Assembly (NCBI GenBank): GCA_021813405.1
Contig: JAKAKS010000022.1
Coordinates: 186,001-250,000 of the forward strand
Source: Nitrospirota bacterium
GTDB lineage: Bacteria > Nitrospirota > Thermodesulfovibrionia > Thermodesulfovibrionales > JdFR-88
DNA: 64,000 bases
Direction of reading: 5' to 3'
The notes under the pieces were generated by a model, which was given only the letters and a program-made list of their open reading frames with translations, was not told the origin of the DNA and searched no databases. A program made the translations under genes and the position numbers. Each line of letters begins with the position of its first letter. Positions within the stretch are counted from its first letter, which is position 1. Below are positions 4,554 through 59,043 of this stretch, in pieces.

Positions 4554-5825
4554 TCAACCCTTCTGTTCGGGCACGCGCATTATTTGCGCACCAAGATGGC
4601 GGAGCTTTTTCTCCATCTTTTCGTATCCGCGGTCCAGGTGGTAGAGCCTGTGTATCTCGCTTTCGCCCTCGGCCGCAAGGGCAGCCAGCACCAGCGATGC
4701 GCTTGCCCGAAGGTCCGTGGCCATCACCTGCGCGCCCTTCAGTTTTTCCACGCCTGTCACGCTGGCCATTCCGCCCTGCAGCACTATCTGCGCGCCCATC
4801 CTCTGCAGCTCCGGCACGTGCATGAAACGGTTCTCAAAAACCGTTTCATTAATAATGCTTGTGCCGTTTGCAACGCACATGAGCGCCATGAACTGCGCCT
4901 GAACGTCCGTAGGGAAACCCGGATAGGGCATGGTGGTTATGTTTACAGAGGCGGGCCTGCCGGAGTTGCCGTTTGCTTTTACGCGCAGGCCGTCCGGCGT
5001 TTTGACGGCATCCACGCGGGTTTCACGCAGTTTGATCATGATTGCGTCCATGAAATCCGGGCGGGATGTCTTTATACTTACGTCGCCTCCGGTTATGGCA
5101 GAGGCGATAGCGAAAGTAGCGGCCTCTATCCTGTCGGGTATTACATCGTAATCATAAGGGCGAAGCTCATCCACGCCCTCTATTTCTATAAGGCTTCCGC
5201 CGGCGCCTTCTATCCTGGCCCCCATGCGGATAAGCGCTTCCGCCAGGTCTACAACTTCAGGCTCACGGGCGCAGTTTTCCAGTACCGTGGTGCCCTTTGC
5301 AAGCGCGGCCGCCATCATCAGGTTTTCCGTGCCCGTTACAGTTGGGACATCGAAATATATGGAAGCGCCATTCAGGCTTCTGGCCCTGGCCTTTACATAG
5401 CCTTCGGCAAGCTCTATCTCCGCGCCCATGCGTTCCAGCCCCATCAGGTGCAGGTTTATAGGGCGGGCGCCTATCGCGCAGCCGCCGGGAAGTGAGACCC
5501 TGGCCTGGCCATACCTGGCCACAAGCGGGCCCAGCACCAGCACAGAGGCGCGCATCGTCTTTACCAGTTCGTAAGGGGCGGTAAATTCGTTCAGCCCGGA
5601 AGTGTCCATATCGCAAACGGAATCGCGCAGGGAAAACCCGGCCCCCATCTTTTTTAGCAGGGAGCCCATTGTAAGCACGTCCCGCAGCTCCGGCACGCTG
5701 CGCAATACGCTTTTGCCTGCGGCAAGGATTGAGGCCGCCATCAGAGGCAAAGTGGCGTTTTTGGAGCCGCTTATATTTACCTCGCCGCGCAGCGGCACGC
5801 CTCCGGCGATCACCAGTTTTTCCAT
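4554..5825 (-). CDS. murA: UDP-N-acetylglucosamine 1-carboxyvinyltransferase
   Basis: First committed step of peptidoglycan synthesis: transfer of enolpyruvate from PEP to UDP-GlcNAc in the cytoplasm. The substrate-binding pair K22-N23 is in [13 protein letters not shown]. The catalytic cysteine is C116 in [15 protein letters not shown], so a fosfomycin-sensitive type is expected. The length of 423 aa is typical and the inside-out alpha/beta barrel pattern is intact. It is followed by uvrC on the same strand. Confidence 0.97.
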
Positions 5826-5900
5826 ATATTTAGGATAACATTTTCACGGACAAAGACAGGGGCCCGCAGAGACGAGCGCTCCGGGGCCCGGATGCGTCAA

Positions 5901-6335
5901 TTAAAGGCTTTTCATTAAAGGGACCATTATAGCTATCAGTATGCCCAGCATCCCCAATATAAGGCCTGCCAGTACAAGTATGCTTACGAATTTCCAGTAC
6001 GATTTCTGATACCTGACAGCATTCTCGATGGTCTGGGCGTCCATGGAACCGGCCAGGATATTTTTTAAAGCTCCTGAGTATTTGAAAAGGTAAACCGACG
6101 GGATCAGGACCAGGGGGATTTCTAACATATATATAAGGCCAAAAAATGGGGGCGCGGTATTGCCATGCGCATAGTTTCGAAAGAACGAAAGCCCAATCGT
6201 AATTATTATCGCAAAAATAAACATGAAACCCACACCGATAAAACCCAATATGGATAAAAACCTGGTCCATCCGGCCGTGGACCGGATATAGTCCCTGATG
6301 TTGCCCGGCATTTGCAAATTCGGATTTTCAAGCAT
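5901..6335 (-). CDS. Small membrane protein, DUF5362-like
   Basis: 144-aa hydrophobic protein with an N-terminal soluble stretch, then TM segments near residues 22-48 (FLSILGFIGVGFMFIFAI), 60-80 and 112-138. The layout of charged N-terminus, FLSILGFIGVGFM helix and a central soluble part with AQTIENAVRYQKSYWK resembles the DUF5362 family of unknown function; this match is from memory. It is likely in the inner membrane. It stands alone upstream of murA, with a 75-nt gap. Confidence 0.6.
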   Translation of the reverse strand: MLENPNLQMPGNIRDYIRSTAGWTRFLSILGFIGVGFMFIFAIIITIGLSFFRNYAHGNTAPPFFGLIYMLEIPLVLIPSVYLFKYSGALKNILAGSMDAQTIENAVRYQKSYWKFVSILVLAGLILGMLGILIAIMVPLMKSL

Positions 6336-21564: not shown

Positions 21565-21772
21565 GCGGCATTCGCCCATATCCTGATTTTTCTCATAAGC
21601 TTTACTTTTTCCCGCGGGCGGTGTTCGTCTGTGTTAGGGCGCGGTCTTATCCACCAGGTTCGCCGTGGTGCCGTGTACGGCTTACATTAATACGGCAAAC
21701 CATCACCGCTTGGCACCGGCAGATCCGCCGCGCCCACTTTGCTCAGCCGCCACGCGGTACCCGGTAAAATCA
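21565..21772 (+). repeat. Dispersed intergenic repeat R2, copy D
   Basis: This copy shares GCGGC-TTCGCC-ATAT, the G-rich GGCGGTGTTCGTCT with flanking CGCGG, and a C-rich tail (GCTTGGCACCGGCAG, TCCGCCGCGCCC, CTCA-CCGCCACGC) with copies at 29698-29940 and 59992-60168. It fills the gap between the convergent tal and gnd genes. The adjoining 21490-21564 and 21773-21837 show nothing else I recognise. Its nature, mobile remnant or structured RNA, is unknown. Confidence 0.65.
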
Positions 21773-29617: not shown

Positions 29618-29697
29618 TTGTTTGTAAGCGCGGTTTTATATTTAGGCTTTACCGGGTTTCCTGTGTGTAGGGGTGAAGCGGCCCTGGCTGTTTATTT

Positions 29698-29940
29698 GCG
29701 GCGTTCGCCGATATGCCTGAATCTTAATAGCCGGGTTTTATTTTTTTCGCGGGGCGGTGTTCGTCTCCGTTTGGGCCGCGTCTCACGTTATACAAGCCTT
29801 GCGGCATTACCCGCGCCGGAGCTGTTTCTGGTAAGGCACTTGCAGACGCACGCACGCGCGGCCCACTGCGCTCACTAACCGCTCCCGCATTGCCAGGTAC
29901 TTCAAAGGCAAACCCAAACGGCTAATAAAGGGCCCTTTTT
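29698..29940 (+). repeat. Dispersed intergenic repeat R2, copy E
   Basis: The longest R2 copy. The 5' half matches the 21.6-kb copy (GCGGCGTTCGCCGATATGCC, then TCGCGGGGCGGTGTTCGTCT). The 3' half matches the 60.0-kb copy (GCTCCC, CCAGGTACTTCAAAGGC, CGGCTAATAAAGGGCCC). It thus bridges the other two and shows they are one family. No ORF is shared. Confidence 0.65.
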
Positions 29941-29969
29941 ACCCGCAGGGAAGCCTGAAGAGCCTATAT

Positions 29970-30668
29970 TTACTCCCGAGGCCTGGCGCGCCGCCCTGTT
30001 TTCTTTTTTACAGAAGATTTTTTTGCGCCATTTCCGTTGCCTGCTATTTTCACGTCGCCAGTCACCTTTGGGGCGGGGAATTTCTGGGCCTGCCTCTCCA
30101 CAAAAGAATGATATGCGTTGGGGTATTTATAATGCTCTTTCCTGTAATACGCGATCAGTTTTTTTACGAGGACGGCCGGGTTTTTGTCGTAAAGCACGCG
30201 CGCCCCAGTCTCTTTTTTAATCACCTTGATGATGTTTCTTATCTCGGAGGTTATGCCGCCGGTGCCCATTACAACGCCTATCAGCTTGCCTTCATCATAG
30301 GCTATGGAAAATTCGCCCAGCGTTCCGGACCTGCCCCCGATTATTACAACAATATCGGAGCTCCTTATATTTACTACTTCACGCCCCATCAGTCCGCTTC
30401 CGGTGAATATTAGCAAGTCGTGAAAATCCACGGGGGAGCGGTATTTGTTGATGTGCTCCCATTTGCTGAGCCCCGGCGATATGCCAACCACCAGGCCGCC
30501 CGCCTCGCTGGCCCCTTTTGCCGCCTCGAAGGGCAGGCCGGGACAGGCGCCGGTCACGGTGATGCAATCGTGCCCGGCTATTGCGCGGCCAAGGTCGTAA
30601 GCCGTTTTTAACTGCTTGTCGCTGAAATGATTTATTGCCGCGCCCATAACGCCTATTTTCAGTTTCAT
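29970..30668 (-). CDS. LOG/TIGR00725-like Rossmann-fold protein
   Basis: 232-aa protein of the SLOG superfamily. The nucleotide-binding loop GGRSGTLGEFSIAYDEGK stands where LOG proteins have PGGxGTxxE. The N-terminal IGVMGAAINHFSD and DCITVTGACPGLPFEAAKGA fit the TIGR00725 branch, described as molybdenum cofactor carrier or LOG-like. A basic low-complexity C-terminal tail (KKSSVKKKTGRRARPRE) may bind nucleic acid. The ATG at 30668 has GAGAGG upstream; an ATG 33 nt further up is also possible. The true substrate is unknown. Confidence 0.75.
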   Translation of the reverse strand: MKLKIGVMGAAINHFSDKQLKTAYDLGRAIAGHDCITVTGACPGLPFEAAKGASEAGGLVVGISPGLSKWEHINKYRSPVDFHDLLIFTGSGLMGREVVNIRSSDIVVIIGGRSGTLGEFSIAYDEGKLIGVVMGTGGITSEIRNIIKVIKKETGARVLYDKNPAVLVKKLIAYYRKEHYKYPNAYHSFVERQAQKFPAPKVTGDVKIAGNGNGAKKSSVKKKTGRRARPRE

Positions 30669-39572: not shown

Positions 39573-39814
39573 CCATGACATCTGTCATATGGACAATGTC
39601 ATGCCTGCCCGGGTTAAGGTATGGCGGCGGGAAGGCCGCCAGGGCTGCGGAGTTTCAGCCCGGCCCCCGGCCGTGCTCTTTGAAAAAACAAAACGGAGTT
39701 CCGGTTGCCGCTAAAATTCAGGCCGGAACAGCTGGAACAAACGGAACAGAAATTTGGCCGCAACTCATTGAAAACAAAAAGAAATCCAAAAAAAACCGGA
39801 ACATATAAAAAAAA
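39573..39814 (+). repeat. Dispersed intergenic repeat R1, copy C
   Basis: In plus orientation: dyad CATGACATCTGTCATATG followed by GACAATGTCATG, then CCGGGTTA and GGCGGC, GC-rich hairpin sequence (GCGGCGGGAAGGCCGCC), boxA-like TGCTCTTTGAAAA at 39674-39686, GGAAC at 39725, 39734 and 39743 (exact 9-nt pitch), AAAACAAAAAGAAATCC, and GGAACATATAAAAAAAA at the end. It lies 28 nt beyond the fur stop codon, pointing toward it. Conservation with the 58.8-kb copy is clear block by block. Confidence 0.85.
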
Positions 39815-39841
39815 GGGGCTGCAACGGGGGGCCTGTGGTGG

Positions 39842-48565: not shown

Positions 48566-48654
48566 CTGCCACCCTATAAAATGGCAAAATGCAGGTAACT
48601 GCATGACGCAAAGCCACCTTTCTGAAAAGAAAGAGGAGCTGCTGGGAGTGGCAG
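48566..48654 (+). ncRNA. Cyclic di-GMP-I (GEMM-I) type riboswitch aptamer
   Basis: P1 pairs CTGCCAC (48566-48572) with GTGGCAG (48648-48654). Inside, GGCAAA (48583-48588) precedes a 6-bp hairpin with GTAA (GNRA) tetraloop, then GACGCAAAGCCAC (48605 on), the strongest GEMM-I signature, and a second hairpin (CCTTTCT-GAAA-AGAAAG) that would hold the tetraloop receptor. Ligand specificity (c-di-GMP or cGAMP) cannot be settled by eye. It precedes a terminator and a sensor kinase gene. Confidence 0.88.
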
Positions 48655-58810: not shown

Positions 58811-58821
58811 TTTCGGCTTTT

Positions 58822-59043
58822 CTTTTTATATGTTCCATCCGTTCCGGGATTTCCTTTTGTTTTTAGCCAGTTGGGCCTGATTTTTTTTGTTCCGTATGTT
58901 CCATCCGTTCCGGACTGCCTGGAATCATTTTTAGCAGACCATCTTTTCAAAGAGCATGAAACCCGCGCAACAAGGAGGGGCCCCTCATATGCCGCCCCAT
59001 CATAACCCGGCACACCATGACATTGTCAATATGACATATGTCA
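58822..59043 (-). repeat. Dispersed intergenic repeat R1, copy B
   Basis: Read on the minus strand: GACATATGTCATATTGAC, AATGTCATG, CCGGGTTA-G and GGCGGC, boxA-like TGCTCTTTGAAAA (near 58955), three GGAAC units (plus-strand GTTCC at 58889, 58898, 58907, exact 9-nt pitch), AAAACAAAAGGAAATCC, two further units at 58832 and 58841, and GGAACATATAAAAAG. It starts 12 nt beyond the DUF62-family stop codon. Best preserved copy. 59044-59229 to its right has no gene. Confidence 0.85.

Follow-up and report, generated by a model that had tools for sequence, protein, structure and literature searches.

The element at positions 58822-59043 of the window, the whole 64,000-nucleotide stretch analysed here, raises the question of what a short intergenic sequence made of ordered conserved blocks does, and how it comes to be repeated. 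The first-pass annotation, which called it R1, had placed two more copies in the window and proposed either a structured RNA or a small non-autonomous mobile element. All three copies were inspected and found at the places described, and they share their blocks in the order described. From the 5′ end these are an array of TGACAT palindromes with a promoter, a GC hairpin, the block TGCTCTTTGAAAA, a variable middle, clustered GAACA boxes and an A-rich end.

Copy 3, the copy in question, is of type A (TGGAACA class) and occupies 58816-59043 on the minus strand. Its operator array TGACATATGTCATATTGACAATGTCATG (59016-59043, minus strand) contains the −35-like hexamer TTGACA (59029-59024, minus strand), which is followed after 19 nt by a −10-like TATGAT (58999-59004, minus strand). 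Further along the same strand lie the block TGCTCTTTGAAAA, identified below as a boxA (58944-58956), three GAACA boxes with a 9-nt period (CGGAACG, TGGAACA and CGGAACA; 58888-58912), and the terminal boxes CGGAACG and TGGAACA with the A-rich end TATAAAAAGAAAA (58818-58846). Copy 2, also of type A, runs from 39576 to 39816 on the plus strand, with operator array TGACATCTGTCATATGGACAATGTCATG (39576-39603), boxA TGCTCTTTGAAAA (39674-39686), three GAACA boxes with the same period (CGGAACA, TGGAACA and CGGAACA; 39724-39748), and a terminal CGGAACA box with the A-rich end (39797-39816), all on the plus strand. Copy 1, again of type A, lies at 2084-2309 on the minus strand (2090-2310 as first described). 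It has operator array CATGACATTGTCAATATGAAATATGTCATATGTACTATTTCATG (2266-2309), TGTACT as −35-like site, a degenerate boxA CGCTTTTTGAAAA (2207-2219), the GAACA boxes TGGAACA and CGGAACA (2155-2170), and a terminal CGGAACA box with the A-rich end TATAAAAAGAAAAGG (2084-2105), all on the minus strand. The 5′ dyad that had been described is present, but is really a longer array, whose consensus from 95 elements reads CATGACATnAACTTCATGACATATGTCATATGGACAATGTCATG, then four free bases, then GCCGGGTTATGATGGCG. The block given as CCGGGTTA is likewise present and belongs to a promoter-like core, GCCGGGTTATGATGG, and the repeated GGAAC units are boxes of the TGGAACA type, alongside which there is a second class, TTGAACA.

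Used as a BLAST query against the same genome, one copy of R1 gave 62 matching pieces, derived from about 35-40 copies. Profile searches brought the count to 64 elements in 1.28 Mb of this genome's sequence, a sample enriched for copies, from which we estimate about 80-110 copies per genome. The expectation that more copies would be found was therefore borne out, whereas the figure of hundreds per genome was too high. The host genome is a Nitrospirota MAG with a close relative, DBS2-1.bin64, to which it is about 95% identical across aligned flanks. The type A pattern had 33 further matches in that relative; elsewhere in GTDB it matched only two single unrelated contigs, and in IMG/VR none. A pattern for the type B 3′ block gave 50 matches across four genomes, and the reversed pattern gave 0. 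ORF-less relatives of R1 are also present in two other genera (G002 and G006), one element in G002 having TTGCTCTTTGAAAACG. R1 had no match in Rfam at the gathering threshold, and a search with one copy at E<=1 gave just a sub-threshold lncRNA match. The elements are exclusively intergenic, and the four arrangements of flanking genes were seen 15, 12, 11 and 11 times, indicating no preference. The R1 family comprises dozens of small intergenic elements within one group of Nitrospirota.

Several other elements were observed in the window or beside R1 copies. A c-di-GMP-I riboswitch aptamer (Rfam RF01051) lies at 48573-48646 of the window on the plus strand. Another family of dispersed repeats, R2, which contains GCGGTGTTCGTCT, occurs at 29636-29972 and 21601-21647 of the window and at two other loci (L037, 6508-6808; L306, about 5680-6010); two R2 copies are inserted just beyond the 3′ end of an R1, with junction overlaps of 5 and about 10 nt. 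Inspection by eye showed that many R1 elements (among them L033, L036, L040, L054 and L062) share an upstream module, GAAGGGGTACACCGCATCCCGCCAAAG...GGTGTACCAAACACC, between −130 and −20, often beside leftward genes, for instance those of a reverse transcriptase or a RelE/HigB-like toxin. A HigBA-like toxin-antitoxin segment has opposite orientations relative to R1 in the two sister species (L061, 12490-13271, versus L173 in G001). One short type B element is located directly 5′ of an ORF that reads as a XerC-type recombinase (L151, 6368-6550). A recombinase near another R1 (L141) appears from its sequence to be an ordinary XerC-like protein, and an integron or XerC site was rejected as an explanation.

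The 5′ half of R1 has the features of a promoter followed by a leader of rRNA type. An xxGACA hexamer is separated from a TATGAT-like site by a 19-nt gap in 62 of 86 elements. In the host 16S leader, TTGACA-17-TAAACT is followed by CGTTCTTTGAAAAG, which identifies the TGCTCTTTGAAAA block of R1 as a boxA; in one copy (L065) the boxA is identical to the host rrn leader CGTTCTTTGAAAAG over 14 nt. At <=2 mismatches, boxA was found in 60 of 92 elements but in 15 of 4,600 shuffled windows and none of the 92 3′ flanks, which excludes chance occurrence, and in many orthologous pairs both copies have the same boxA. A recognisable boxA is absent from about a third of elements, a point that we count against the reading preferred below. 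Directly 5′ of boxA is the GC hairpin (mean z −0.93 relative to dinucleotide shuffles, 51 leaders). The suggestion of a structured RNA therefore holds for the hairpin of these 51 leaders but not for the 3′ block, where RNAalifold detected no conserved pair in 33 aligned sequences.

In rRNA operons, boxA protects the untranslated transcript from Rho. At the place in the leader where boxA stands in ORF-less copies, the two intact ORF-containing copies of R1 in this genome carry a ribosome-binding site, and this fits a role for boxA in shielding an untranslated transcript from Rho. Outside rRNA operons, boxA can also function in other leaders, for example those of suhB and a toxin-antitoxin gene, where it can repress (PMC5725501). 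A promoter of its own, a boxA leader of rrn type and a leader hairpin would also suit a set of host regulatory loci, in which each R1 would be a small ncRNA gene controlled by the HTH protein described below together with a factor acting at the TGACAT array, and kept because either its RNA or its promoter is useful to the cell. The boxes are kept at fixed orthologous loci and one form of the protein, HTH2, is under strong purifying selection, as such loci would predict. However, R1 has no fixed neighbour or orientation, its 3′ half is devoid of conserved RNA structure, copies have been lost with no visible replacement, and the sets of copies vary across genera. We consider host ncRNA loci somewhat unlikely.

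The 3′ block contains two or three boxes at a 9-nt period, separated by about 50 nt from a terminal box, which the A-rich end follows. Boxes are TGGAACA (or CGGAACA) in type A and TTGAACA in type B. When the base before GAAC was compared between terminal and upstream boxes, 126 cases were G-G, 67 were T-T and 8 were discordant, so that 193 of 201 agree within the copy. The boxes are mainly direct repeats; many type A copies also have a central inverted box, TGTTCCA. Two candidate functions for the block were rejected. A Csr/Rsm sponge, suggested by the GGA motifs, does not accommodate boxes that co-vary between TGGAACA and TTGAACA, since type B has no GGA. A coding sequence (MEQMEQ...) is contradicted by the A-run after the boxes, which varies in length and breaks the frame, and by the boxes in other genera, which stand beyond the stop codon.

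Longer copies of R1 carry an ORF for an HTH protein between the R1 promoter and the R1 boxes. Two of these are in this genome (L042 and L063) and two in the sister species (L215 and L222). The ORF is 140-180 aa long with the HTH motif YREIAEALDIGIASVHRIAKE. Searches of Pfam, PHROGs and NCBIfam gave no family above cut-off, and no HUH/Y1 match was obtained in these databases or in PDB. All genomes found to encode the protein belong to this order; of those sampled, it was present in 8 of 177 from the order and 8 of 396 from the phylum. In G002, G006, G011 and G085 (another family) the genes for its homologues share this promoter core and are followed, beyond the stop codon, by GAACA repeats. A first structure model was poor (pLDDT 51); an alignment-based model (pLDDT 61) predicts an all-helical HTH plus a helical hairpin, and had no significant match in PDB. 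A phage or plasmid origin was rejected after searches that gave 0 matches. The dN/dS ratio was 0.08 for HTH2 and 0.41 for HTH1, the latter with 3 changes in a 118-residue core. ORF-containing and ORF-less copies thus share one architecture, and most R1 elements have lost the HTH gene while keeping its promoter and probable binding sites.

The type of HTH protein is linked to the type of box. The gene with an Arg-type helix (VH-R-I) lies in a type A (TGGAACA) element and genes with Asn-type helices (VH-N-I) in TTGAACA elements, while Lys and Thr helix types accompany (A/C/G)TGAAC. The two genomes that have an Arg-type HTH contain 43 and 51 arrays of TGGAACANNTGGAACA, which are at control level in 12 relatives, and TGGAACA arrays were confined to the genus with the Arg-type HTH. 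These sequence patterns suggest that the HTH protein binds the GAACA boxes. As only one independent Arg-type HTH is known, the relation between helix and base rests on few lineages. A further point against the preferred reading is the lack of type specificity in the 5′ array, which means that the element's two ends are not both linked to the HTH protein.

Co-variation of protein helix and boxes would equally be expected of a pure DNA site, the boxes serving a nucleoid-associated or segregation-type HTH protein and the promoter and boxA being leftovers of the parent gene. Such a site would also account for GAACA boxes in either orientation, as with the mid-copy TGTTCCA, and for the missing RNA pairing. 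It would have no need of boxA and the hairpin, yet both are conserved in ORF-less copies, boxA being unchanged in many orthologue pairs, and two parallel box systems per genome would be odd for a housekeeping function. This explanation is improbable in our view.

Selection on the boxes was evident from 22 orthologous pairs of R1 in two species, one pair broken by an insertion being excluded from the comparison. GAACA boxes were identical at 393 of 406 positions (96.8%), compared with about 88.8% for the rest of the element. The boxes have thus changed by about 3% and the remainder by about 11%, indicating that fixed R1 copies are under selection. Most comparable copies have been inherited in place between the sister species, and copies that have stayed in place since the species split with their boxes kept are not dead. 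Dead relics, that is, internally deleted and decaying copies of the HTH gene, would explain why both ends are common to ORF-containing and ORF-less copies and why some copies, such as L056 and L251, are clearly degenerate. They would not be expected to contain boxes and a terminal motif evolving about 2-4 times more slowly than the remainder of the same copies, nor to have a boxA that is absent from intact ORF-containing copies. We regard this explanation as highly unlikely.

Three ORF-less copies in G006 are 88-94% alike in unrelated flanks, indicating that whole units were copied. These copies, the ORF-less relatives in two other genera, and the promoter and 3′ boxes common to the longer HTH-encoding copies agree with the proposal of a small non-autonomous mobile element. 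Against it, R1 has no terminal inverted repeats and is mostly inherited in place, no transposase domain was found in or near the elements, and no target-site duplication was seen at the sister-species presence/absence sites examined, which included no clean recent insertion. In this genome a deletion has removed most of one copy, of which an operator remnant is left (L200/L299), and a 363-nt presence/absence segment exceeds R1 in size (L204/L305). About half of informative orthologous pairs lose synteny no more than about 110 nt from the 5′ end of R1, or at its first bases, and none does so at the 3′ end. At L049 the break at the 5′ edge is an insertion. An inversion between R1 copies, suggested by L108, was rejected, since the left flank of L049 and L208, a contig that terminates in the same motif, indicate that sequence was inserted at the 5′ edge. 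In L208 (G001 C181), the sister species has about 2 kb of extra DNA separating the orthologous left flank from the 5′ edge of the R1 copy L108.

The reading that we prefer, with a probability of about one in two, is that R1 elements are ORF-less satellites of an HTH-encoding element, their transcription following an rrn-like antiterminator and the HTH protein binding them in trans. On this view R1 elements are the members without an ORF, the majority of a small element family, and a sequence-specific HTH protein is encoded by the rare full-length ones. An R1 probably forms a short transcription unit with its own regulated promoter (the TGACAT palindrome array and 19-bp spacer), and its rrn-type leader of hairpin and boxA would recruit NusB/S10 and keep RNA polymerase on the untranslated transcript. 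The cluster of GAACA boxes at the 3′ end would be bound in trans by the cognate protein from full-length copies, the base before GAAC being matched to the recognition helix (G for Arg; T for Asn and also for Lys or Thr). In this division between autonomous element and satellite, full-length copies would provide the HTH protein and ORF-less copies the promoter and boxes. Protein bound at the 3′ boxes may define where the unit ends, so that a recombinase of the host or of foreign origin can copy it, may protect the unit, and perhaps stops the boxA-modified polymerase. The broader proposal of a new kind of selfish or regulatory system, in which an HTH protein acts with dispersed, transcribed satellites protected by antitermination, and the box-bound protein ends the unit or directs copying with no transposase of its own, seems to us unlikely.

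The nearest analogue of R1 is the REPIN-RAYT system, in which dispersed, vertically transmitted repeats are paired with a matched protein (PMC8049555). Like it, R1 is intergenic, present in dozens of copies and vertically inherited, and is linked to a few genes that encode a protein matched to the repeat type and that themselves carry the repeat at their locus (PMC8049555). Unlike it, R1 has as partner an HTH protein with no match to the HUH tyrosine transposase (RAYT), and has a promoter and boxA; it lacks REP palindromes in inverted, hairpin-forming pairs, its 3′ block showing no consensus pairing and its GAACA boxes being mainly direct repeats. R1 resembles MITEs in being short, non-autonomous and intergenic, with the ends of longer gene-carrying relatives, but its 5′ TGACAT array and 3′ GGAACATATAAAAA are not mutual inverted repeats, and its full-length relatives encode only the HTH protein and no transposase. 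Because R1 departs from both in these defining features, we place it among dispersed repeat-protein systems. As in rrn-type boxA leaders (PMC5725501), a hairpin and then TGCTCTTTGAAAA, the host rrn boxA, come early in the putative transcript; in contrast to those leaders, the boxA of R1 is in dispersed repeats and not in a single gene or rRNA operon, and what follows is short and untranslated. In R1 a dispersed intergenic repeat is linked to a cognate DNA-binding protein of matching specificity, and a repeat family carries an antitermination signal of the rRNA type. If this is confirmed, it would offer a compact test of how repeats persist and spread with no transposase, and of non-rRNA roles of boxA outside well-studied bacteria.
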